Shown piece by piece: positions 9,913 through 37,171 of a stretch of DNA of 50,069 bases. Under the pieces are notes generated by a model. The model was not told the origin of the DNA. It searched no databases and saw nothing but the letters and a program-made list of their open reading frames with translations. Source of the stretch: an uncultured Synechococcus sp. (lineage in GTDB: Bacteria > Cyanobacteriota > Cyanobacteriia > PCC-6307 > Cyanobiaceae). Every line of letters begins with the position of its first letter. The stretch's first letter is position 1. The stretch is taken from assembly GCA_913057985.1 (NCBI GenBank), contig CAJXPL010000018.1:1-50069 (forward strand), given 5' to 3'. The position numbers were made by a program, and so were the translations under genes.

Positions 9913-10602
9913 ATGAGCCATTCGTCGTGCGTGCTGAGCACAACAGAGCTGTGCTTCAGCTACGGAGGTCGCAACACCGTCGACCGCGTCAACCTGCAAC
10001 TCCAAGCGGGAACACTGACGGCGCTGGTGGGGCCCAACGGAGCCGGCAAATCAACCCTGTTGCATCTGATCGAAGGACGACTGAAACCCAGCCAAGGAAC
10101 AATCAACACCAGCAAGCCAATCGGCCTAATGCCCCAGCGGGCAGCCATTGATTGGTCGTTTCCGATCACCGCCCGCGACATGGTGCAGCTAGGGACGCCC
10201 AAAAAGGGCAAAGCCACAGCAGCGCACCACTGCGAACAGCTGCTGGAACGCGTCGGCATGGCAGCCATGGGTTCACGACGCCTCAACCAGCTCTCGGGCG
10301 GCCAGCAACAACGCGTCCTGCTGGCAAGAGGATTGATGCAGCAGACCGACATCCTGCTGCTGGATGAACCCTGCAGCGCCATCGATCCACCGACGCGCGA
10401 GCACCTGCTCAAGGTGATGCGGGATCAGGCGGAAGCCGGCCAGACGCTGCTGGTGAGCAGCCACGATTGGGGCAGCGCCCTCGACAGCTACGACCAGGTG
10501 GTCGTGATGGACGGCCAAATCCTGGCCAACGGATCACCCAACACGGTTCGAGAAAAACTGAGCGACCTGACTTGCATGATGGGGAGCCACTGCTGTGGTT
10601 GA
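9913..10602 (+). CDS. znuC: Zinc ABC transporter, ATP-binding protein ZnuC
   Basis: A 229-residue ABC ATPase that powers zinc import at the inner membrane. It shows Walker A GPNGAGKST near residue 40, signature LSGGQQQRV near 130, Walker B ILLLDEP near 150 and the switch histidine in SSHDW. The ATG at 9913 follows a GAAGAG ribosome site and precedes the usual first strand. Reading upstream in frame only adds sequence antisense to znuA. Its stop overlaps the znuB GTG by 8 bp, so synthesis of the two is likely coupled. Transcription starts from the region of the shared operator. Confidence 0.93.
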   Translation: MSHSSCVLSTTELCFSYGGRNTVDRVNLQLQAGTLTALVGPNGAGKSTLLHLIEGRLKPSQGTINTSKPIGLMPQRAAIDWSFPITARDMVQLGTPKKGKATAAHHCEQLLERVGMAAMGSRRLNQLSGGQQQRVLLARGLMQQTDILLLDEPCSAIDPPTREHLLKVMRDQAEAGQTLLVSSHDWGSALDSYDQVVVMDGQILANGSPNTVREKLSDLTCMMGSHCCG

Positions 10603-11389
10603 GCCCGACGTCTGGTGGCTTCTACCACTCACGATCTCGCTGTTGATCGGGGCCATTTGTCCGGCCACTGGAGCATTGCTGATCACCCAACGCCGGGTGC
10701 TGCTGGCCAACCTGATGGCCCATTCCGTTCTTCCCGGTTTGGTGATCGCCCTGGCCATTGGCATCGACCCAAGCATCGGCGGCCTGATCAGTGGACTGCT
10801 GGGAGCATTGGTGGCTGAACGCTTGAACCGACGCTTCAAAGGCCGGGAAGAGGGCGCTATCAACACTGTGCTGGCAGGCTTCACGGCCCTGGGCGTGCTG
10901 TTGGTGCCTCTGCTAGAGGCACGGGTGGACCTGGAGACAATTCTGTTCGGCGATCTGCTGGCTGCCACCACAACAGATCTGCTGCGAACAACCATCTCAG
11001 CCAGTGCCCTGTTAGCGATGTTGGTGTGGGGCTACCGCGACCTGGTGTTCGTTGGCATCGACCCCGAGGGAGCAGCCATCGCCAAACGACCGGTGCTCTT
11101 GATTCGGCTGATCTGCAGCCTGATCACCGCCCTGGTGGTGATCAGCGCCATCACTGCCGTGGGGGTGATTCTGGTGATTGGCCTGCTGTGCGCTCCGGTG
11201 CTGATGCACGTGGAGCGCAGCCGAAGCCTGAAGGAACTCATGCTGCGCAGCGCGAGCACAGGGCTGCTTCTGTGTGGCGGCGGAATGATGCTGGCGATTG
11301 CTATTGACCTGCCACCGGGTCCACTGATCGGAACACTGTGCTTGGCTCTTCTATTCAGCTACAGGGGCAACACTGCAGAGCAACGGTGA
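10595..11389 (+). CDS. znuB: Zinc ABC transporter, permease ZnuB
   Basis: A 264-residue inner-membrane permease with about eight to nine helices, of the ABC-3 family that imports Zn, Mn or Fe. The ABC-3 pattern is visible in 'GALLITQRRVLLANLMAHS' near residue 28-46 and in the Gly/Ala-rich helices at residues 50-75, 170-200 and 225-255. It starts at GTG 10595, overlapping the end of znuC, and ends in a hairpin region shared with the convergent small gene. Together with ZnuA and ZnuC it makes a complete high-affinity zinc importer. Confidence 0.92.
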   Translation: MVEPDVWWLLPLTISLLIGAICPATGALLITQRRVLLANLMAHSVLPGLVIALAIGIDPSIGGLISGLLGALVAERLNRRFKGREEGAINTVLAGFTALGVLLVPLLEARVDLETILFGDLLAATTTDLLRTTISASALLAMLVWGYRDLVFVGIDPEGAAIAKRPVLLIRLICSLITALVVISAITAVGVILVIGLLCAPVLMHVERSRSLKELMLRSASTGLLLCGGGMMLAIAIDLPPGPLIGTLCLALLFSYRGNTAEQR

Positions 11390-25901: not shown

Positions 25902-26432
25902 ATGAAACATCGGATCTGGCTCGTTATGGCGCTTCTGGCTTTCCCCTCCGTTGCGGCCAGCCCAAGCAGCGAAGAGTTCGTGATCGAAGACCTAGAAGAC
26001 GGCGAAATCATGCGAACGTTCACACAACGAATGGAGGGACATGAAGTCAGCCAACCAACAGCTCCCAGTGTTCCAGCACTCCACCCGTCGGCCACTTCGA
26101 CGCCCCAACCAAGCAAATTAATTCGGGTGGTTCAAGGTGCCGCAAGCTGGTACGGGCCTGGGTTTTACGGCCGCAAAACTGCCAGTGGTGAGCGCTTCCG
26201 CAAGGGCACGATGACGGCGGCCCATCGAACACTCCCTTTCGGATCCAAGGTGCGCGTCACCAATCTGAACAACGGCCGCAGCGTTGTGGTTCGGATCAAT
26301 GACCGTGGGCCGTTCAAGTACCACCGAGTGATTGACCTCGCCCATGGAGCAGCACAGGAATTGCGAATGATGCAAGCCGGAGAAATACCGGTGCGACTGG
26401 AGGTGCTCAAAGAGGAAATGGAAAGAAATTAG
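25902..26432 (+). CDS. rlpA: RlpA-like double-psi beta-barrel protein
   Basis: A 176-residue secreted protein with a signal peptide (residues 1-19, cleaved after VAA). A Pro/Ser-rich linker runs to about residue 75, and a DPBB domain follows with ASWYGPGFYGRKTASGERF, 'AAHRTLPFGSKVRVTN' and 'VVVRINDRGPF' including the conserved Asp. RlpA proteins act at the septum and some cleave peptidoglycan glycan strands lacking stem peptides. Length and lack of a SPOR domain suggest the short form. The ATG has a GGGG ribosome site. It is the last gene before the AT-rich island. Confidence 0.9.
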   Translation: MKHRIWLVMALLAFPSVAASPSSEEFVIEDLEDGEIMRTFTQRMEGHEVSQPTAPSVPALHPSATSTPQPSKLIRVVQGAASWYGPGFYGRKTASGERFRKGTMTAAHRTLPFGSKVRVTNLNNGRSVVVRINDRGPFKYHRVIDLAHGAAQELRMMQAGEIPVRLEVLKEEMERN

Positions 26433-26473: not shown

Positions 26474-27373
26474 ATGATGGCCAAGGTGGAGATGACGGCA
26501 TCAACCGCGCTTAAGCCGCTTTCGACAGGGCTGATCAGAGCATCTGCAGGCCTCAATCTCTGCCATGAAAACGCGGATGAGCTTTACAACCAAAGGCCAG
26601 AACTAGACTTCATCCAAATCCACCCTGAGCACATCATCCAAGAAGAGGGCGGAACTTACAGGGAACAACTAGATGCCTTGAGGCATCACTACAACGTGAT
26701 TCTCCATGGTTTCGGATTATCAATTGGATCATCCGCACCACTTGATCGCGACTACCTCCTACTCGTCAGGGATCTGCTAGAGGAACATCCAGAGGCCGTG
26801 TTCTCAGACCATTTCTCCTGGAGTTCACTCTCCAAGCATCACTTCCACGACCTAATACCGTTAATTCAAAACAAGGAAACAGTTGACTACATGGTCGAAA
26901 GAATTGATACAGCGCAGGAGATCATCGGATCGCCGATTCTCCTTGAAAACATCAGTAGCTACATGCGATACAAGGAGTCAACAATGAGCGAATTTGAGTT
27001 CATTAATGAGATCACAAAAAAAACCGGTTGCTATGTCCTGCTCGACGTCAACAACATTTGGTGCAATGCCGTCAATTTCAAGGAAGACCCATTAGCAGTC
27101 ATCAGCACTCTAGAAAAAGACTCTGTCAAGGGTTACCACCTAGCTGGATGCAGCCTGGAACACATGGGCAATGGCCCGGTCTACATCGATTACCACAAAG
27201 AAGCTGTACACGAAGAAGTCTGGACTTTATACAAAAATTGTCTGGAGCGATTTGGTCCATGGCCGACGCTACTGGAATGGGAGAACAACGTCCCAAAACT
27301 CGAAAGGACCCTGGAAGAAGTTCAAAAAATAAACAAATATCTCCGCCCCTATGCTGGAGGAGTCGAATCATGA
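26474..27373 (+). CDS. MNIO (DUF692) multinuclear non-heme iron oxidase
   Basis: A 299-residue TIM-barrel protein of the DUF692/MbnB/BufB type. Family motifs and likely metal ligands are present: LHG (H78), SDH (H113), LLEN (E158), LLDVNN (D191, N193), HLAG (H222), DYH (D239, H241) and LLEWEN (E268). Two usual positions differ: the first ligand motif reads HPEH (H53 where Asn is common) and the residue after HLAG is Cys226 instead of His. MNIOs use Fe clusters to remodel Cys or other residues in RiPP peptides. It is first of a tight operon with its usual DUF2063 partner. Codons are more AT-rich than in flanking genes. Precursor peptide not found. Confidence 0.9.
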   Translation: MMAKVEMTASTALKPLSTGLIRASAGLNLCHENADELYNQRPELDFIQIHPEHIIQEEGGTYREQLDALRHHYNVILHGFGLSIGSSAPLDRDYLLLVRDLLEEHPEAVFSDHFSWSSLSKHHFHDLIPLIQNKETVDYMVERIDTAQEIIGSPILLENISSYMRYKESTMSEFEFINEITKKTGCYVLLDVNNIWCNAVNFKEDPLAVISTLEKDSVKGYHLAGCSLEHMGNGPVYIDYHKEAVHEEVWTLYKNCLERFGPWPTLLEWENNVPKLERTLEEVQKINKYLRPYAGGVES

Positions 27374-28221
27374 GATCCCCTCAAATCGTTCGACTTCAGC
27401 AACAGTTTCTGGCCAGCCTCCATGACAAACCACGGCAATGGCTGATTGATCAAATCATTCCTGCGCCTGGCTTCGAAAATGCAGAGGAAATTTTAAAAAT
27501 CTACTTGCACCGAGCCAAGGCAAGAACGGTCGATCCACTCAACAGCATTTACAACTGTTTGAGATGGCTGATTGGAGAGGCAGCGCTGCATAAACTGATC
27601 GACAAATTCTATGCAGACTCAATGGGAGAACCACTGAACTCCCAAACAATGGCAACAGAATTCGGTGCATTTATCGGCAATCTGAGCGCAGAAGAAATGA
27701 GAGATGCAACATCAGATATGGACAAGACGATTGAAAGTGAATCAGATGCATGCACGGCAATGGTCTCAGCAGCCTTACTGGACTGGCGTTGTCACTGGGT
27801 AGCGATGATTGAGCATCGATCCGAAGAAAATACGGCTGTGCTCAACAAAAAATTGATGCATCGATCATCAATGTGGTTGAGACCGAGAATGAACAAAACC
27901 ACACGGCTCTGCACATCAGGCATTGCACTCGACAGCTTTTGGGAAAAAGCTCAAGCCAATTCAACTGACAAATCAATTCCTCACTGCAGCGATGGACCAA
28001 AAACTTTTCTAATCCACGCGGACCAGGCACACAAACCAGTCGTGAGGGATCTCAGCAACGATGAAGATCACCTTCTCAATCATTGCGACGGGACACACAC
28101 CATCGCCTCTCTTTGCCATGAAGCAAAATTCTACGGAAGGTCAAAGGAACAGACCGTAGAACTGATTAGGAAGCTCATCGATGAAGGCGTAATCAGGAAT
28201 CTCGACGACTTGTTGATATAA
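27370..28221 (+). CDS. DUF2063-family MNIO partner with C-terminal RRE/PqqD-like segment
   Basis: A 283-residue protein. Its N-terminal half matches the DUF2063/BufC-type partner of MNIO enzymes ('LQQQFLASLHDKP...' start and 'YLHRAKARTVDPLNSIYNCLRWLIGE'). The last 75 residues read like a PqqD-type winged helix ('LLNHCDGTHTIASLCHEA' followed by a Leu-rich helix), the RiPP recognition element fold that binds leader peptides. The start codon overlaps the DUF692 stop (ATGA), so the pair is translationally coupled. I infer that it presents a leader-bearing substrate to the MNIO. The substrate itself is not seen. Confidence 0.85.
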   Translation: MRSPQIVRLQQQFLASLHDKPRQWLIDQIIPAPGFENAEEILKIYLHRAKARTVDPLNSIYNCLRWLIGEAALHKLIDKFYADSMGEPLNSQTMATEFGAFIGNLSAEEMRDATSDMDKTIESESDACTAMVSAALLDWRCHWVAMIEHRSEENTAVLNKKLMHRSSMWLRPRMNKTTRLCTSGIALDSFWEKAQANSTDKSIPHCSDGPKTFLIHADQAHKPVVRDLSNDEDHLLNHCDGTHTIASLCHEAKFYGRSKEQTVELIRKLIDEGVIRNLDDLLI

Positions 28222-28225
28222 ACAG

Positions 28226-29812
28226 ATGGAGTCACCCATGACAACTGCCGACCAGCTGTTGAGTCAGGTCGAAGCCAAGTTGGGCGCGGCGCAGACCATT
28301 GAACTACTCAAAAACTTAGGAGCGCACCCAACACAACTTGACTCTGGGACACCACCCGACGTTGGGCCCGTCAATCCAGAGACGCGAATCGTTGTGGTGG
28401 GAGCAGGCGTTGCAGGTCTGGCCTTGACCTATGAGCTTGCAAAAAGAGGGGCAAATGTTGAGCTTTGGGAGGCCACAGGAAGAGTTGGGGGGCGAAACAG
28501 GAGTATCCGGCATGGTGAACGATTGGAGGAGATCGGGCATCCGAGCCAACGATGCAATCTGCCCCATGAGGGGTATCTCAATGCTGGTCCAGGACGCATT
28601 TCACACCACCACCGTGCAGTGTTGCACTACTGCAGGAAGTTTGCACTAACACTGAAGCCGTATCAGACATTAAATCGAGCGGCGTTACTGCACCGATATT
28701 TCCCGGAAGTGCAGCAGGACCTTGTGATACGCAATCGTCAAGTTCAGTTTGATGGGCAAGGAAGAATCGGAGAACTGGCCGCCAAGGTTGGGCCGTGGAT
28801 TGCTACAGACAGCCCAGTGACAGCTGAATTGGCCGATGCAATGCGCGACTGGTTGCGCGACAACTTTGAAGTGAGTCAGCAAGGTGATGGGGAATGGCAG
28901 TACCGAACCAGTGGACGAACAGGATATGAGAAACAACGAGGCGGTCCAGATGATCAGGGGGTCCCGGAAAAACCCCTATCGCTGGAACAACTGCTGGGGT
29001 TGCGACTCTGGTACGACGACCCACGCCGAAGTCCAGATGTCATCGACGAACAACTCAGCATGTTCGAACTGGAAGGTGGAAATGATGCACTCGTACGTGC
29101 ATTCGCAGATCAAATCGGACCCAGAGTAAAACTCAATCGAGAACTCAAGAGAATGAGGGTTAACAGTAATGGCACAGTCGAGTTAGTGGGAGACGACCAA
29201 GAATATGGTCAGATCAGAAAAGAAGCTGACCGGGTCATCCTGGCGATGCAACCCCAGGTGATGATTGAGATGGACCTTGAGTTACCAGAAACAATCAAAA
29301 ATGGAATGAAAGATCTTCCGCCGAGATATGCCGTCAAAGTAGCCGCATGGATGAAGCGACGATTCTGGGAAGAAGACTTAGCCATCTACGGAGGAATTAC
29401 ATTCACCAACATGCCGAACCAACAAATCTGGTACCCCAACAGTGGTTTTCATGATCATCGCGGCGGCCTTCTTGTTTTGGCCTACGCAGCCTTAAATCAT
29501 GGAAAAACATTGGGTGAGCTGCCACCGCAGGAACGTTGCCAAGCCACAGTCGCGCTGGCCAAGCGAATTCACCCACAGATCACGGGGGAGATTGACGAAG
29601 ATTCATTAATCACAATCGCATGGCAAAACATTGCGCATATCCGAAGCCCGTGGGTGGCCTGGACACCGGATCGCTATCAACGCTGGTTCAAGTTGATGAC
29701 ACAGCCCATGGAGTCTGTTGCGTTCGCCGGTGACTGGTGCAGCCATTTACCGGCTTGGCAAGAGGGAGCCATTCGTTCTGCTTACTCCTTGCTGTCGTGG
29801 GCGACGAAATGA
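28226..29812 (+). CDS. Flavin amine/amino-acid oxidase with N-terminal helical extension
   Basis: A 528-residue FAD enzyme of the monoamine/L-amino-acid oxidase family. The dinucleotide motif VVVGAGVAGLALTYELAKRG lies near residue 56-76, 'VGGRNRSI' near 87 and a C-terminal FAD motif 'SVAFAGDWCSHLPAWQEGAIRSA' near 505. Before the flavin motif is an unusual extension of about 50 residues, a helical 'TADQLLSQVEAKLGAAQTIE' stretch and a Pro-rich linker. Family members oxidise amines or L-amino acids to imines and H2O2. Possible starts are ATG 28226 and ATG 28238. It is 4 bp after the partner gene and overlaps the exporter start by 4 bp. Role with the MNIO (for example oxidising a peptide amine) is inference. 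Confidence 0.88.
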   Translation: MESPMTTADQLLSQVEAKLGAAQTIELLKNLGAHPTQLDSGTPPDVGPVNPETRIVVVGAGVAGLALTYELAKRGANVELWEATGRVGGRNRSIRHGERLEEIGHPSQRCNLPHEGYLNAGPGRISHHHRAVLHYCRKFALTLKPYQTLNRAALLHRYFPEVQQDLVIRNRQVQFDGQGRIGELAAKVGPWIATDSPVTAELADAMRDWLRDNFEVSQQGDGEWQYRTSGRTGYEKQRGGPDDQGVPEKPLSLEQLLGLRLWYDDPRRSPDVIDEQLSMFELEGGNDALVRAFADQIGPRVKLNRELKRMRVNSNGTVELVGDDQEYGQIRKEADRVILAMQPQVMIEMDLELPETIKNGMKDLPPRYAVKVAAWMKRRFWEEDLAIYGGITFTNMPNQQIWYPNSGFHDHRGGLLVLAYAALNHGKTLGELPPQERCQATVALAKRIHPQITGEIDEDSLITIAWQNIAHIRSPWVAWTPDRYQRWFKLMTQPMESVAFAGDWCSHLPAWQEGAIRSAYSLLSWATK

Positions 29813-31191
29813 GCAACAGCAGCACCAATCTTGAATGGAAAAGCCTGACACTCCTGTGCTTGCCGACACTCTCCATCTCGCTAAGCACGAATATCGTTGT
29901 TGCCGCACTATCAGATATCAATCATGCCTTCAAAGGAATTGAGGGGTTAGGAAGCTGGACTTTATTGCTGTACTCAGCAACTGCAGCCAGCCTCTCCATT
30001 GCAGCAGGAGAACTAGGTGATCGGGTCGGACTCCGTCGCGTGTACGGACAGGGGCTCATGATTTATCTGATTGGCAGCTGTATCGCTGCTCTCGCCATCA
30101 ATGGGCCAATGCTCTTGGCAGGGCGAGTGGTGTCAGGAACCGGTGCGGCCATTCTGGCACCCGTTGCTTTGGCATTTCTGAGCCGAATGTATCAAGGTCG
30201 AGACAAACCAATCGCCTTTGGATATTGGGCTGCGAGCGTCACGATTGGAAAAGTCGCTGGACCAATCCTTGGGGGATTGATTGAAGCCATGAGCAGTTGG
30301 AGGTGGACGTTCATCGTCGCCGCCGCACCAGCACTGCTTGGCTTAATCATGATCAGAAAATTGCCTCGATTCGAGAGGACAGAAGACACAAAAAATCAAC
30401 CAATCGATCTGATCGGCATTGGAGGACTATCAACACTCCCAGCCATTGGATTGATCACACTCAATCTATCCACTCACATACATACAAACATCCTGGCGAT
30501 ATTAACCATCATTATCTTCGCGATAGGTACTTTAACTTGGAGACACCTGAACAGTACACAACATCCCGCTATTCCACTTGCGCGCCTTAAAGAAAGCTCC
30601 TGGTGGAGACCAACAATCTTACAACTGATTGTTCGCATTGTATTCATGGCAATGCTTGTGATACTGACAAGCTATTTTCACAGCATACGTGGCGAGAGTG
30701 AAATCAACGCATCGAGAGATCTTCTGCCATTCTGCATTGCAGTGGGTATCATGTCATTCTCAACTGGCTATATCTGCCAATCACTGGGAGTTCGTAAACT
30801 GCTTCAAAGCGTCTTCGTGTTAGCTACAGCAGGTGCTGCAATACTGTTGTCAATAACTACAAGTGGGTTCCGACCAATTGATTGGGCCGCAATCATCACC
30901 ATCGGTATTCTGGCAGGAAGCACATCACAACTAAGCCGTTTAGCGCTTTCAAATTTCGCACCAGAGGAGGCTATGAGAGGAGCATCTCTGAACACACTGG
31001 TGATTAATTTAGGATTAGCACTGGGCGCAGCATATCCAAACATGATTCATGGAATCGTCTCCAATGAACTTCACTTGGGCGGCCTGATGAGTCAAATAGA
31101 AATGCTATTCACAATGCGTCTTGAAATCATGATTCTACTTTTCCTCTTTATAGCAGGGACCTGGCAAGCAGGGAAAATCAAAGAGGCATAA
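29809..31191 (+). CDS. MFS transporter, DHA2 (14-TM) drug-exporter type
   Basis: A 460-residue polytopic protein with 14 predicted helices. The MFS loop-2/3 motif 'GELGDRVGLRRVYGQG' lies near residue 65-80 and a motif-C-like 'GPILGGLIEAMSSWRWTF' near 145-162, matching EmrB/QacA-type exporters. Its ATG overlaps the amine-oxidase stop (ATGA), so it closes the operon. Its presence suggests the operon exports a product or confers tolerance. Codons are AT-richer than flanking genes. It is convergent with the cupin gene, with only 10 bp between stops. Confidence 0.88.
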   Translation: MSNSSTNLEWKSLTLLCLPTLSISLSTNIVVAALSDINHAFKGIEGLGSWTLLLYSATAASLSIAAGELGDRVGLRRVYGQGLMIYLIGSCIAALAINGPMLLAGRVVSGTGAAILAPVALAFLSRMYQGRDKPIAFGYWAASVTIGKVAGPILGGLIEAMSSWRWTFIVAAAPALLGLIMIRKLPRFERTEDTKNQPIDLIGIGGLSTLPAIGLITLNLSTHIHTNILAILTIIIFAIGTLTWRHLNSTQHPAIPLARLKESSWWRPTILQLIVRIVFMAMLVILTSYFHSIRGESEINASRDLLPFCIAVGIMSFSTGYICQSLGVRKLLQSVFVLATAGAAILLSITTSGFRPIDWAAIITIGILAGSTSQLSRLALSNFAPEEAMRGASLNTLVINLGLALGAAYPNMIHGIVSNELHLGGLMSQIEMLFTMRLEIMILLFLFIAGTWQAGKIKEA

Positions 31192-31200
31192 ACAACTTGA

Positions 31201-31566
31201 TTAGTGTAGATGGGCAAAATCACTTTCACGCGCTGAAACACTGGCAGTGAGGAATTCAACCTCATAGGCAATCACATCACAATTGCCAGTATTTACGGCG
31301 TTATGCAAAAGGGGCACTTTGTGCGTCACAGCGGTTCCAGGCTTGAAATGAGTTTCACGGCCTATTGCCGAAGAAACCTCTTCAGGACCCTTGGCAATGT
31401 AATTCGTGAGAGTGCCTTCAGACAGCTGTATTGTAAGAAAATCCAGGTGATGAAAGTGCCATCCAGTCTTCTCACCAGGCTTCAAGACGTATTTAATCAC
31501 TCTCGCCAAACCACTTTTCTCTAAGACCTCGATGTGATGCGCACTATCAGAATCAGCACTAAGCAA
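31201..31566 (-). CDS. Cupin-domain protein with an apparently frameshifted signal peptide
   Basis: A 121-residue single-domain cupin. The metal-binding motifs are GWHFHHLDFLTIQLSEG (three His and one Glu) and 'KVPLLHNAVN' with the last His. The coding frame has no ATG; TTG 31566 is its only usual start. Upstream, the same frame reads a strongly hydrophobic signal-like segment (LLFQFIFSVFLLSA) that lacks any start codon up to a stop. An ATG at 31613-31615 lies in the neighbouring frame, exactly where a one-base shift would restore a complete signal peptide. So the gene may be a young pseudogene, or carry a sequencing error. Function unknown; a periplasmic metal or small-molecule binder is possible. 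Confidence 0.65.
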   Translation of the reverse strand: MLSADSDSAHHIEVLEKSGLARVIKYVLKPGEKTGWHFHHLDFLTIQLSEGTLTNYIAKGPEEVSSAIGRETHFKPGTAVTHKVPLLHNAVNTGNCDVIAYEVEFLTASVSARESDFAHLH

Positions 31567-31800
31567 AAATACTGAGAAGATGAATTGGAAGAGAAGAGTT
31601 TTGTATAAGAGCCATCAGGGCCTAGCGAGTCACTCACAGCGATGGAATCAAAGTGTCACTTTACTATGGCAAGGGCACCATCAAATGGCAAGCAAGATTC
31701 CGGCAACTGGGCAAACCAATCAAAATATAAATAAAGGATTTGAAAAGAAGACCCTCTGCAGGAGATGGCTAGATTTAGAAATGAACAATAGACAAATGAG

Positions 31801-34800
31801 ATGAATTTCATCATCGGAAGCCTGTTTCCAAAAGGCTCTGACGGAAAAGCAAATATTCAACTATCATCCAGATTTGAACAGGTCAAAACCGATAACGGTG
31901 AAATCATTATTCGCGAGAAAGACGACAACGACAAGACAAAAAGGCATAAACTCAAGTCAAATCTAGATATCACGAGCAAGCCTGTAACCATTACGAATGC
32001 CTCGGGCTTCATCAATAGCTGGTTCAAGGATGGAATCACATCAATTTATGATGAAGATGGGAACTTAGACAGCTCCTCAATCTTTGGCGGTGTTTACAGC
32101 AGAATAAAAAGTAAATGGACAAAGCAGCCAATTAATCAATCATTGAAATCATTGGTGATGCTTGGCTATGGTTTCACCAACAAAGATGCACCAGGGGCAG
32201 ATCAGGTTGCCTCCACAGATGCCGAATGGATGGCCAAGGGTAAACAGGATTCGGAACTATATAATGCCGTCTTCAATCTAGAAAACTATGATCCAGCAGC
32301 AATGTGGGATCAATACAGTGGGTCCGACCTTGTTATCTCAAACTACGAAACGAAAAACCTACGACAGAATCTACCTGAAGGAAAAGCACAGTTAGAAGAG
32401 GGAGACAGCCCTAACCTCTGGCTCCCGGCTCTGCTATACAGCTATGGCGTAAAAGGAAAAGGCACAAGTTATCCAGGTCCCGTATTGATGGTGGCACCAG
32501 GCGATAAAATCAAGCTCAATTTCAGAAACAGAATCCGCATCGGGAATCTCAATACTGAAGAAACTCAGCAAGCAACATTGGTTAAAAATAGCACCTATGG
32601 AAATAGTGCTAGTGATGGTCTTGGCGGCACAACATCAACCAATTATCACTTTCACGGCTCACATACAAATCCCAATGGATTTGGAGACAATGTTGTATCC
32701 CGATTCACAACTGGTCAAAAATGGACAACGGAAATTGATCTACCTGAAGATCATGGCCAGGGCTCGTATTGGTATCACCCCCACTACCATCCCTCAGTCA
32801 ACCAGCAGGTTTATGGAGGAGCTTCAGGCTTCATTCAAGTTGGTGATCCACTGAGTAAGATTCCCGGCTTTGAAAATATCCCCAGGAATCTTGCCATCCT
32901 GAAGACGATGGATCTTGGTCTCGATGAAAAATCGGGGCAGCTGCAGCTAGGGGCCTTTGACAACTATGGCGGTCCGTTGACCAATGCGATGACGATGGTC
33001 ACGGTCAACGGAGAGTTCCAACCGCAAGCGGATGCAAAGCAAGGAGGGTGGCAATCGATTTCACTGAGCAATCAGTCCAACCAGGCTTTCTACAACGTCT
33101 CCCTAATTCATCAGGAGTCAGGAGAACGTCTCCCCCTCTACATTTACGGTGAGGATGGTCATCAGTTTCCAGAAATCAGACAAGCACATGGGACACTCTC
33201 TCAATCCACAAGCGCAAAAACTGGATTAATCGACGGGTACAAGCAGCAAACCGATGTCATCTCCATGGCACCGGGTAAGCGCGTTGATGTATTGGTGTAT
33301 CTGCCTGATGGCAAGACGGAGATGGTGTCGCAATACAAATTTGTTGATGATGATGGCACGGAATTTACGACCGCCAATATGGGGGGATATCCAGATCTCA
33401 GCAGTGAAGCGAACGCACTAAAAAATGCAGACGGATCGCCGGCTGGTGCAACTGGCGGACAAAGTGCTGGAGCACTTGCAGTGTTTAATGTAAGTGATGG
33501 AACTCCTTTACTAAGTCAACAAAAACTTGATCGCAAGATCAATAGGGCCAATCAGAAGATCCAAGTTCAAGACATCGAGCCATCCACAAAACCAGAGGAC
33601 TACAACAGCGAAGCTGTTCCCAGCGTGAATCTCTTCGAGCTCAATGGCAAAGGCAAAGAAATTTGGTCACCATTGCGCAAAAGAATCTTCAATTGGGCCA
33701 AAGAAACACTTGTAGGACCGAAGAAAGAATATGATCTAGCAACACGAGAACGCATCAAGTCATACAACAAGGGTGTTGATGCTGAGAATCGCTACAAACG
33801 ATATGAAACGATCAACGGGTTGTTGGATGAAGAGAATCCAACATGGTTTGGCTATGAAAAACCATTTCTAATTAATGATCATGTATTTCCCAATGGCTCA
33901 ATGACCATTGCCCAACTTGGGACAATGGAAGAGTGGACACTCAGGAACTGGAGTGTTAATGGACCTTCCAAATACATTGGCCACCCCTTTCATATTCACA
34001 TCAATGACTATCAAACCAAGAACAGTGACACCGAATTAGACCAGAAGCGGAGCCTCGAAGATGTCACGATGCTGAATTCCTCGGGCTATCAATATATTGA
34101 TACCAGCCCAAGTGCATCTGAAGGCAACAATGAAAAGTCTTTGGAACCGTTCCGTGGAAATTTTCACTCCATTGGAGTGAACGGACCTGACTATGATGCA
34201 ACAGACAAAAATTCGCCCGTTGGCACGTGGGGAGCAAATGATCAAACAATTCGAATGTTATATCAAGACTATATCGGAACTTATGTTTTCCACTGCCACA
34301 TTCTCCCGCATGAGGATGCTGGAATGATGCAAGTGATCACCATCGTCGAAAACACCGATAGCAGTTGGATTGTGCCGGCAGAATCCGACAACTATCTGAA
34401 TTCCGACGGCTCAATCAACCTCAGACGTGCTCAGGACTTTCAAAAGTATTCCCTCATCCCTTCGGCAGTAAGTGGCTCCATACAGAGAATCCAGGTCGGT
34501 GATCTGACCCATGATTTCAGCCAAGATATTGCCATCAGCCGTACGGGCATCGATGGCGAGGGCGGCGTGGTTGAGTTGTATGACGGGGCCTCACTACTCA
34601 ACAAGACAACACAACAACTGAGCTCCCTTACCCCCTATGCAAGATCAACAATCGCACCCTGGGCCTTCATCGAAGATTTCACAGGTGATGGAAAACGTGA
34701 TTTAGTGACCGCTGGATTCAAGGGAGACAAAATTAATCTCTCAGACTTAAAAATCAAAGCCTGGACATCGAAAAAGAACGGCAAAGAATGGAGCCAGGCC

Positions 34801-36252
34801 TTTAAATTCAACCCGTTTGATGATATTGAGACTGATCTGCACACCGATGCTGGTCATCGCATGCCACACAGCAATCTGACAGCAGATCAAGTTAGTGTTG
34901 CCATGGCTGATATGAATCTGGATAATTTTCAGGATATCGCGATCACCTATGCCCTTAAAAATGGAGGCATACGTTTTGTTGTTCTGGATGGTGCCGCTTT
35001 ATCGCTGAACTATCAAACCAACACGATGGAGGGGGGCTACCTCCCCGACGACAATGTTCTGGTTGACGCCGTCATCGATGATCCTGCACTCGACGCTCTC
35101 AGCAACATCGTGCTCACTGCTGGTTTCAGCAGCTATGCACAATCGGCACTGGAAGACGTGATCATCACCGCTAAATCAAAAGACAACAAACACAAGACAG
35201 TTTTTACAACGCAGCTCCAGGCCGGTCATTTCATTGCCACCTCCGAAATGGAGGCCTCAGATGATGGTGGTTCCCATGCTGGGCATGGCATGCCAGCACC
35301 GGATGACGAGCGTGTGCTCAATCTCCGCCATGATTCGATGCCTCTTCAGATTGTTGAAACCCAGACGTTCAGCAAATCAGGTGAAGCGGCGACTCCAACC
35401 ATTCATGGTGTGTTTGGAACAACAGGGCTAGCCATTGGTGACAAGTTGGTGATTGCCCAAGGCATCAGCAGTCAGGACGGTGAGACCAGCTATGGCAATG
35501 CTTCGTCCTCCAACAATCTGTTCAACACATCCCAACAACTTGCTCTGGATCTGGATGAATTGACTCGCGTTAATTCCAAGGATCTCCGCGGTGTCGTGGG
35601 ATCTGACCTTGACACGACGTACAAACCCAGGCAAACCCAGCAGCGGGTGAACATGGCGAATTTGCTCTACTTCGCTTACACGGGACAAACCATGGCCCCG
35701 TCCGACCTGGCCAATGCGGCGGGTTCGGAATTGGGCGGAGGGAAAAGTGCCAAGGAACTCGCCTTTGACTTGCTGGACGGTGAAGCGATCAAACCAGCGA
35801 TGACCACCAACTTCAAAAGGAAGAATGTCCCTCTGGCCGAGAAATCGGTGAAGGACATCGTGACAGGAACCACCAAGAATCTGTTCCACCGTCGTCCAAC
35901 CTCAGCTGAGCTCGATCGCTGGACAGCCGAAGTGGACAGTGGTCTCGACAAATCACTGCTGCCTCTCGCCGTTCTTCAGGCTGTCGATGGTGATGACGTG
36001 TACCGCACCAGTCTGCTGTCAGCCATCGCCCAATGGAATCAAGCTCAATGGAGCACCAACGCAGTGCAGAAAGGGGCCTTTGGCCAGGGTTTTAGCAGCG
36101 ACAAAAAGCGCTTCCGCGCCACGACCAAGCAGATCTCAGACATCGGACTTCAAACCGGCTGGGACAGCGCCCGCGATGCCTTCTCGACCTACACCGAAGA
36201 GACCTTGGAGCGTCTGATTGGCACTGAGATCTCGAAGTCCGGCTTCTTCTGA
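31801..36252 (+). CDS. Giant multicopper oxidase with FG-GAP-like repeats and DUF4214-like C-terminus
   Basis: A 1,483-residue protein. It has all four multicopper-oxidase motifs: HFHGSH (H283, H285, H288), HPHYH (H326, H328, H330), HPFHIH (H728, H731, H733) and the HCHILPHEDAGMM block (H831, C832, H833, H837, M842/M843), giving type 1, 2 and 3 copper sites. Long insertions separate them. Residues about 880-1130 hold FG-GAP-like Asp-rich motifs (DFTGDGKRDL, DMNLDNFQDI), and a His/Met-rich patch lies at about 1150-1175. The final 200 residues resemble DUF4214 ('LFHRRPTSAELDRW'). No signal peptide is visible, so type I or other secretion is likely. Substrate unknown (Mn, Cu, Fe or phenolic). 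Confidence 0.85.
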   Translation: MNFIIGSLFPKGSDGKANIQLSSRFEQVKTDNGEIIIREKDDNDKTKRHKLKSNLDITSKPVTITNASGFINSWFKDGITSIYDEDGNLDSSSIFGGVYSRIKSKWTKQPINQSLKSLVMLGYGFTNKDAPGADQVASTDAEWMAKGKQDSELYNAVFNLENYDPAAMWDQYSGSDLVISNYETKNLRQNLPEGKAQLEEGDSPNLWLPALLYSYGVKGKGTSYPGPVLMVAPGDKIKLNFRNRIRIGNLNTEETQQATLVKNSTYGNSASDGLGGTTSTNYHFHGSHTNPNGFGDNVVSRFTTGQKWTTEIDLPEDHGQGSYWYHPHYHPSVNQQVYGGASGFIQVGDPLSKIPGFENIPRNLAILKTMDLGLDEKSGQLQLGAFDNYGGPLTNAMTMVTVNGEFQPQADAKQGGWQSISLSNQSNQAFYNVSLIHQESGERLPLYIYGEDGHQFPEIRQAHGTLSQSTSAKTGLIDGYKQQTDVISMAPGKRVDVLVYLPDGKTEMVSQYKFVDDDGTEFTTANMGGYPDLSSEANALKNADGSPAGATGGQSAGALAVFNVSDGTPLLSQQKLDRKINRANQKIQVQDIEPSTKPEDYNSEAVPSVNLFELNGKGKEIWSPLRKRIFNWAKETLVGPKKEYDLATRERIKSYNKGVDAENRYKRYETINGLLDEENPTWFGYEKPFLINDHVFPNGSMTIAQLGTMEEWTLRNWSVNGPSKYIGHPFHIHINDYQTKNSDTELDQKRSLEDVTMLNSSGYQYIDTSPSASEGNNEKSLEPFRGNFHSIGVNGPDYDATDKNSPVGTWGANDQTIRMLYQDYIGTYVFHCHILPHEDAGMMQVITIVENTDSSWIVPAESDNYLNSDGSINLRRAQDFQKYSLIPSAVSGSIQRIQVGDLTHDFSQDIAISRTGIDGEGGVVELYDGASLLNKTTQQLSSLTPYARSTIAPWAFIEDFTGDGKRDLVTAGFKGDKINLSDLKIKAWTSKKNGKEWSQAFKFNPFDDIETDLHTDAGHRMPHSNLTADQVSVAMADMNLDNFQDIAITYALKNGGIRFVVLDGAALSLNYQTNTMEGGYLPDDNVLVDAVIDDPALDALSNIVLTAGFSSYAQSALEDVIITAKSKDNKHKTVFTTQLQAGHFIATSEMEASDDGGSHAGHGMPAPDDERVLNLRHDSMPLQIVETQTFSKSGEAATPTIHGVFGTTGLAIGDKLVIAQGISSQDGETSYGNASSSNNLFNTSQQLALDLDELTRVNSKDLRGVVGSDLDTTYKPRQTQQRVNMANLLYFAYTGQTMAPSDLANAAGSELGGGKSAKELAFDLLDGEAIKPAMTTNFKRKNVPLAEKSVKDIVTGTTKNLFHRRPTSAELDRWTAEVDSGLDKSLLPLAVLQAVDGDDVYRTSLLSAIAQWNQAQWSTNAVQKGAFGQGFSSDKKRFRATTKQISDIGLQTGWDSARDAFSTYTEETLERLIGTEISKSGFF

Positions 36253-36304
36253 TCCATGGTCCGAAGCACGATTGATACGCTGGATTGATGAACCTCGAGC
36301 CAGC

Positions 36305-37171
36305 GTGATCAGCGAGGTCATCAACAAGGAATCGGCCGCAGCCTACCGATCAAACACTCTGCGCAAACGTCTCCTCAGTGGCCTCGGTGTGGGCGGCTTT
36401 GGCCTGCTTGTCGTGAGCCTGGGGGGGTGGTGGTTCACCGCCGCGCTGGGGGGAATGGTGCACCTTGGCCTGCTGGAGTTCTTCCGGATGGCGCAATTCA
36501 AGGGGATTCGCCCCGCCACCAAAACTACCCTGGTGGCCTGCCAACTGCTGCTGTTCACCACCCAGTGGGCGATCCAGGGCGGGCTGCCGGCTGATGTGGC
36601 CCATGCCGTTCTGCCCCTCTCTGGAGCCGCCATCTGCGGTTGGCTCCTGCTGCAACCGGTGACAGGTTCCATCGCCGACATTGCGGCATCGATCTTCGGG
36701 TTGTTCTACCTCGGTTTTTTGCCCAGCCACTGGCTGAGTCTGCGCGGTTTGGACAACGGTCTGGAGATCACCCTGTCGGCCTGCCTGATGATCGTGGCCA
36801 CCGACATCGGCTCCTGGGCCGTGGGACGGCGTTACGGGCGCCGGCCCCTCTCACCGATCTCCCCTGGGAAAACCATCGAGGGGGCGATCGGGGGATTCAT
36901 CTCGGCCATGCTGATCGGCCTGATCTGCGGCCAGCTGATGGGCTGGGCGCTGCATGGCCTGCCGGGCCTGCTGCTGGGGGCGCTGATCGCTCTGTTCGCC
37001 CTGGTGGGAGACCTGACGGAATCGATGATGAAACGCGATGCAGGCGTGAAGGACTCCGGTGACGTGCTGCCCGGCCATGGCGGGATCCTGGACCGAATCG
37101 ACAGCTATCTGTTCACCCCAGCGGTGGTCTTTTACGCGATCGCTCTATGCCAACCGCTGTTGGCCCCATAA
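36305..37171 (+). CDS. cdsA: Phosphatidate cytidylyltransferase
   Basis: A 288-residue inner-membrane enzyme that forms CDP-diacylglycerol, the branch point for phosphatidylglycerol synthesis. About eight membrane helices and the C-terminal CDP-alcohol signature 'SMMKRDAGVKDSGDVLPGHGGILDRIDS' region with its Lys/Asp residues (near 235-260) identify it. GTG 36305 gives the typical CdsA length; alternative starts further upstream would run into the oxidase gene. GC content returns to the host level. It marks the right edge of the island. Confidence 0.9.
   Translation: MISEVINKESAAAYRSNTLRKRLLSGLGVGGFGLLVVSLGGWWFTAALGGMVHLGLLEFFRMAQFKGIRPATKTTLVACQLLLFTTQWAIQGGLPADVAHAVLPLSGAAICGWLLLQPVTGSIADIAASIFGLFYLGFLPSHWLSLRGLDNGLEITLSACLMIVATDIGSWAVGRRYGRRPLSPISPGKTIEGAIGGFISAMLIGLICGQLMGWALHGLPGLLLGALIALFALVGDLTESMMKRDAGVKDSGDVLPGHGGILDRIDSYLFTPAVVFYAIALCQPLLAP

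Follow-up and report, generated by a model that had tools for sequence, protein, structure and literature searches.

A cyanobacterial MNIO and its DUF2063 partner recur together with a giant multicopper oxidase

MNIO enzymes typically modify small peptides, most of them rich in cysteine. A locus that encodes such an enzyme without a recognizable precursor peptide beside it lies on contig CAJXPL010000018.1 of an uncultured Synechococcus sp. (assembly GCA_913057985.1), from which a stretch of 50,069 nucleotides was analysed (the window, to which all unprefixed positions refer). An earlier note on this DNA, made from its letters alone, described a four-gene operon encoding an MNIO, a DUF2063 partner with an RRE-like end, a flavin amine oxidase and an exporter. 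What recurs in other genomes is a different core, consisting of the MNIO, its DUF2063/RRE partner and a giant multicopper oxidase (MCO), the last of which the earlier note left out. The genes concerned are as follows (aa, amino acids; ORF, open reading frame).

26474–27373, plus strand: MNIO (MbnB/TglH/ChrH family, DUF692), 299 aa; PF05114, 308.9 bits (cut-off 25)
27370–28221, plus strand: DUF2063 partner with a predicted C-terminal RRE-like domain, 283 aa; PF09836, 39.1 bits (cut-off 27.2)
28226–29812, plus strand: flavin amine oxidase of the L-amino-acid-oxidase type, 528 aa, accessory; PF01593 (Amino_oxidase), 124.1 bits
29809–31191, plus strand: MFS exporter, DHA2/EmrB-like, 460 aa from the ATG at 29809, accessory; PF07690 (MFS_1), 134.9 bits
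31201–31566, minus strand: small cupin-like ORF, 121 aa, identified by eye; no Pfam or NCBIfam match
31801–36252, plus strand: giant MCO, 1483 aa, with one Cys (C832) and the C-terminus ISKSGFF; PF07731 and PF07732 over cut-off

Linkage of the enzyme pair to a giant multicopper oxidase

ORF coordinates and Pfam scores confirmed the four genes of the earlier note in both place and family. The genes are also as tightly packed as it held, with ATGA overlaps at the MNIO/DUF2063 and amine oxidase/MFS junctions and a gap of 4 bp between the DUF2063 and amine oxidase genes. Ending the locus at 31191 was, however, premature: the cupin-like ORF starts 10 bp past the end of the MFS gene, and the MCO gene starts 610 bp beyond the four-gene set.

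The distribution of these genes was followed in 148 relatives (the window genome included) and in a 386-genome sample of the phylum; genomes and loci are given by our own G and L numbers where they have no strain name. In a tree of 36 MNIOs, ten copies form a single clade with 100/100 support. An MNIO of this clade is present in five of the 148 relatives, counting the window genome. A separate search returned five loci: two copies in WH7803, one in CS-1328, a deltaproteobacterial protein at 33% identity and, in Prochlorococcus AG-412-I05, a fragment of 94 aa. The second CS-1328 copy was not counted; its contig (G487:C68, 38110 bp) holds two mirror-image copies of the locus, which is probably an assembly artefact. 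G244 and G253, from another family, encode MNIOs 53–54% identical to that of the window. Within the phylum sample, 24 genomes yielded an MNIO match, four at more than 50% identity and the remaining 20 at no more than 40%; four have an MNIO above 50%, four have the C-terminal domain of the MCO, and three have both, two of these being from one genus.

Of the nine genomes in which an MNIO of the clade is intact, eight encode the MCO, and in seven of these eight the two genes share a cluster, in which the MCO gene may be downstream, upstream or divergent. The order is MNIO-DUF2063-AOx-MFS-MCO in the window (AOx, amine oxidase), MNIO-DUF2063-MFS-MCO in G006, MNIO-DUF2063-MCO in G024 and CS-1328, and MCO-MNIO-DUF2063-AOx in G086, where 29 bp separate MCO from MNIO; in G244 and G253 the MCO and MNIO genes are divergent. 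The ninth genome, G021, is without the MCO, and 517 bp of its locus, beside the MNIO-DUF2063 pair, are 85% identical to the start of the G024 MCO. The DUF2063 partner adjoins the MNIO in eight copies and is unlinked in G244 and G253, each of which has one MNIO and one partner. Taken together, these patterns make it very probable that the MNIO, the partner and the MCO are functionally linked.

The other two genes of the operon are less constant, and the four genes do not hold as a unit. Among the ten intact copies, the amine oxidase lies near three (with a remnant in AG-412-I05, locus L018) and a homologous MFS gene near four, with 53% identity to the window's exporter in G006 and 41% in G244 and G253; the two occur together only in the window. 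G086 and one WH7803 locus (WH7803b) combine an amine oxidase with a nearby, unrelated-looking MFS-like gene that scores below the Pfam cut-off.

The giant multicopper oxidase

Giant MCOs of this kind, 1451–1744 aa long with a conserved C-terminal domain and FG-GAP-like matches below cut-off, were found in 11 genomes: that of the window, G006, G024, G086, G244, G253, WH7803, CS-1328, AG-412-I05, G398 and G023. The Cu-oxidase domains of the window's protein score 43.5 and 31.7 bits (cut-offs 20.4 and 21). The motifs HxH, HxH, HxxHxH and HCHxxxH, which we take to be the copper ligands, are invariant in all 11 proteins. Nine have a single Cys, the copper ligand, and those of G024 and G398 have three. 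The 89-aa C-terminal domain is present once per searched MCO genome, the CS-1328 mirror copy aside, and was found in no other protein at E 0.001 in the 386- and 148-genome samples. All 11 proteins end in an invariant GFF, whose coding pattern occurs only once in the window genome. The predicted structure of the C-terminal 306 aa was of low confidence (mean pLDDT 60, the last five residues below 50) and was not used. No signal peptide was seen by eye, and the WH7803 protein is not named in the accessible text of three exoproteome and pili papers (PMC4949707, PMC5839243 and PMC7994388).

In WH7803, a CuZn-superoxide-dismutase-like ORF, recognized by eye, lies about 1.7 kb from the giant MCO (L069:13135–13692). 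G021, which is without the window-type MCO, encodes a different multicopper oxidase of 1470 aa (L070:3852–8264) with RTX-like repeats seen by eye and no GFF tail.

The enzyme pair and its accessory genes

The window MNIO, the single PF05114 match in its genome, keeps all nine iron-ligand positions described for TglH and MbnB in the accessible text of PMC8888699 and PMC10880893. Its best NCBIfam match is BufB, at 277.9 bits and under the cut-off of 310; it scores 42.5 bits against the MbnB equivalog (cut-off 325) and 53.5 bits against the ChrH equivalog (cut-off 600).

A profile of the DUF2063 partner matched no PDB chain by sequence. A structural model predicted from eight sequences (mean pLDDT 81) gave three PDB matches at E < 0.001 in Foldseek: chain A of 8hci, chain A of 8hi7, and 3dee. 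The TM-scores are 0.52–0.55 for these TglHI A chains and, for 3dee, 0.57 by query and 0.78 by target. Chain A is presumably TglI, because chain D is given as the DUF692 protein, and 3dee is a DUF2063 protein with an RRE according to the accessible text of PMC12452194. Because the matches are these two kinds of protein, the RRE-like end that the earlier note had read from the letters is well supported by the predicted structure.

For the amine oxidase, the closest PDB match is the L-amino acid oxidase 2jae (E 6.3e-43). The best NCBIfam match of the exporter is TIGR00711 (DHA2/EmrB type; 97.7 bits, below the cut-off of 230.2), and 14 hydrophobic windows, which overlap in part, appeared in a crude scan of its hydropathy.

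Search for a precursor

Nine ORFs of at least 20 aa lie mostly outside genes between 25850 and 31900; each has 0 to 3 Cys. These ORFs, which were not searched against databases, agree with the view that no small Cys-rich precursor adjoins the operon. We also looked in nine genomes for a DUF2282 precursor, which, standing beside the operon in a relative, would have spoken against the earlier note's reading. Six genomes, including that of the window, gave no match. The only clear match is in G086, 75 bp upstream of a second MNIO match that is 36% identical to the window's, and this locus is a built-in contrast with the MCO-linked locus of the same genome. A WH7803 match is borderline and has an internal stop (22.3 bits, or 22.5 with neighbours, at a cut-off of 22.4), and one in G024 is below cut-off.

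Small ORFs were then compared among loci. For 846 ORFs in 13 loci, cross-matches at E 0.001 were confined to syntenic or sister loci. The ORFs compared were of 18–199 aa; those with at least half their length within a longer open frame (200 aa or more) were left out, a filter that removes nearly all candidates in GC-rich loci (six were kept in L010). The negative result covers the loci and DUF2282; other bufferin families were not searched genome-wide, nor TglA or MbnA by model. In G021, two large ABC exporters lie about 3 kb from the MNIO (L011:12941–17277), one of them with a start that by eye resembles a C39 peptidase.

These results bear on whether the locus is a copper-protection operon of the bufferin type, with its Cys-rich precursor encoded at another place in the genome. 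BufB is the best NCBIfam match of the MNIO, and the partner is of the DUF2063-plus-RRE kind that serves bufferins, as far as the accessible literature describes it. However, the BufB score falls short of its cut-off, the sole clear DUF2282 match sits beside a different MNIO paralogue, and the MNIO clade is separate from that bufferin-type paralogue in the tree. We therefore regard such an operon as quite unlikely. What stands of the earlier interpretation is an MNIO system with a DUF2063/RRE partner, no standard precursor adjacent and probably a non-Cys substrate; what falls is the four-gene unit.

Chromosomal setting

The genes listed above lie in a block of distinct composition.

26474–36252, no strand: low-GC block between RlpA (25902–26432) and a CdsA-like gene (ORF 36218–37171)

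The GC content of the ten 1-kb intervals inside the block is 0.424–0.568, against a mean of 0.631 (s.d. 0.033, minimum 0.534) for the 39 outside it. The whole stretch, including the MCO, has the appearance of a single insertion between RlpA and CdsA; no empty site was seen in a relative. The block is likewise lower in GC than the adjoining CdsA and OKR genes in G006 and G024.

The MNIO and the MCO might be merely co-resident on a genomic island without acting together, the MNIO genes being decaying cargo. The loci of the window, G006, G024 and G021 occupy one common chromosomal site, AG-412-I05 holds remnants, and iron ligands have been lost in G024 and in G021, where the equivalents of D184, N187, H231 and E258 are gone. 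Between G024 and G021, moreover, dN/dS is 0.19 for the MNIO, above 0.10 for DUF2063, 0.11 for OKR, 0.08 for CdsA and 0.03 for RlpA. However, the linkage recurs with new gene orders in other genera and in another family, eight of the ten clade copies keep all nine ligands, and the MNIO value is far under 1, so that selection between these two genomes appears relaxed but not free. Mere co-residence is in our view improbable. The full-length MNIOs of G024 (L009:8297–9178) and G021 (L011:9196–10077) are possible pseudoenzymes or cases of early decay.

The oxidase as candidate client

The MCO is a likely client because it is the only large protein that accompanies the MNIO and its peptide-holding partner. 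That the MCO polypeptide is the MNIO substrate is our preferred reading, although it falls somewhat short of probable. More specifically, and tentatively, we propose that the MNIO-DUF2063 complex is a dedicated maturase of the giant MCO, making an oxidative change at a non-Cys site, both in picocyanobacteria and in one or more further families of cyanobacteria. The observations are that the genes co-occur, that they are linked in varied gene orders, that the MNIOs form a single clade and that the ORFs compared include no common small precursor. From these we infer the following mechanism. The RRE-like domain of the partner would hold a segment of the MCO polypeptide in the cytoplasm, where the multi-iron MNIO would oxidize a non-cysteine residue of the held segment. 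The MCO would be exported afterwards (the order of the two steps is presumed) and could act extracellularly, with a phenolic compound, an amine or a metal as its substrate. In this picture the amine oxidase and the MFS pump are additions confined to particular lineages.

The usual Cys chemistry of MNIOs is improbable here, because the sole Cys in most of these MCOs is a copper ligand. Action of MNIOs on Asp, Asn and Phe is known (PMC12452194), and the same paper makes the case that real proteins are probably the targets of some MNIOs. According to the accessible text of PMC12636315, a ChrH-like MNIO in cyanobacteria acts on a protein of 34 kDa that bears a C-terminal motif.

Several results weigh against the proposed maturase. 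In WH7803 there are two MNIO-DUF2063 loci and one MCO, far from both. In G086 the MCO, flagged for its odd composition, groups with those of G244 and G253, whereas the MNIO groups with that of WH7803b; the genes are nevertheless adjacent, as if brought together anew, so that one-to-one co-evolution of MNIO and MCO seems not to be tight although the genes re-associate. The MCO is intact, and no intact MNIO was found, in three genomes: G398 (no MNIO match), G023 (none found in a metagenome-assembled genome that is 68% complete) and AG-412-I05. In the last, decayed MNIO and amine oxidase pieces (L018, about 10001–10711) precede the intact MCO, and the genome has no match to the DUF2063 partner. 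The MCO can apparently exist without the MNIO, because G398 and G023 together make up the opposite side of the MCO tree (support 100/100). In G024, three of the nine MNIO ligands (the equivalents of H107, D184 and H231) are lost and the MCO is intact. The difference in GC between block and surroundings, clear in the window, is small or mixed in G086 and CS-1328.

Two candidate marks of MNIO action on the MCO were also given less weight. The C-terminal GFF was considered as a modification site because of its invariance and its unique coding pattern, and because the large ChrH-type precursors of cyanobacteria are modified at a C-terminal motif (accessible text of PMC12636315). It was demoted because the MNIO-less MCO clade of G398 and G023 has it too, and it more probably serves export or folding. 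In the MNIO-linked MCO clade, the clade-specific positions amount to 19 scattered columns and give no clear motif.

The main alternative is an exported product. Here the MNIO pair, amine oxidase and pump would make an exported product from an unlinked or unrecognized precursor or an amino acid, and the extracellular MCO would oxidize it, use it as a mediator or take its copper. An MFS or MFS-like gene lies near the MNIO in the window, G006, G244, G253, both WH7803 loci and G086 (with the sub-threshold scores given above for WH7803b and G086), and an amine oxidase of the L-amino-acid-oxidase type near three copies. Coq4-like genes occur near both WH7803 MNIO loci and that of G086; L014:11883–12545, L015:14678–15313 and L010:2952–3608 were confirmed by PF05019, and L014:15633–16295 was identified by eye only. 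The best NCBIfam match of the MCO is the o-aminophenol oxidase PhsA, albeit far under cut-off (58.1 versus 950 bits), and known MNIO products bind copper (PMC12452194). The MFS-like genes near most copies and the Coq4-like genes near three fit a small product better than a maturase. Conversely, no small ORF is common to the loci among those compared, exporter types differ, with no MFS match in the loci of G024, G021 and CS-1328, and seven of the ten loci are without an amine oxidase. We consider an exported small product possible, but would not call it probable.

The cassette is a concrete candidate for an MNIO that matures a working enzyme at a non-Cys residue, and if the MNIO pair does serve the MCO, this would bear on copper use by marine picocyanobacteria. 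The genome of Synechococcus WH7803 holds the MNIO, the partner and the MCO.

Comparison with known systems

No accessible paper joining an MNIO or DUF692 protein with a multicopper oxidase or laccase was found; a paper on copper stress in Caulobacter contains both DUF692 and multicopper, unconnected in its accessible text, and those that name both MNIO and laccase are unrelated to judge by their titles. The main text of PMC12452194 mentions neither cyanobacteria, copper oxidase nor amine oxidase, and the accessible text of PMC12636315 does not mention multicopper, copper oxidase, DUF2063 or Synechococcus.

Bufferin clusters (DUF2282, the MNIO BufB, the DUF2063/RRE protein BufC and DoxX) resemble the window locus in the MNIO superfamily and in the DUF2063-plus-RRE (PME-type 1) partner. 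They differ in that the window genome has no DUF2282 match, none of the eight region proteins scanned against Pfam is a DoxX, and the window MNIO is below the BufB cut-off, belongs to a separate clade and is linked to a giant MCO. TglHI (3-thiaglutamate) and MbnBC (methanobactin) share the set of iron ligands, and the partner model matches TglHI chain A; the MbnB score, however, is far under cut-off, and no TglA- or MbnA-like peptide was noticed, none having been sought by model.

MNIOs that stand beside or act on large proteins are already known (PMC12452194 and the accessible text of PMC12636315), so protein-sized targets as such are not new. The cyanobacterial ChrH-like clusters, with precursors above 30 kDa, are similar in having a cyanobacterial MNIO and a protein-sized target (PMC12636315, accessible text). 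Their targets, over 34 kDa, are described there as tetratricopeptide-repeat proteins ending in the Cys motif CPACGMG, whereas the window's neighbour is a one-Cys enzyme, and the window MNIO, by its equivalog score, is not of the ChrH type. TIGR04222 membrane proteins and long bufferin-type precursors (PMC12452194) are likewise large proteins encoded beside an MNIO, but the large targets proposed in that paper carry Cys-rich segments or repeats, unlike the one-Cys redox enzyme found here. The MCO itself resembles multicopper oxidases of the laccase and phenoxazinone synthase types in its Cu-oxidase domains and its histidine and Cys motifs, and differs from them in its size, its conserved C-terminal domain and its linkage to an MNIO. 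The enzyme pair is thus standard; its company, a giant MCO, is not.

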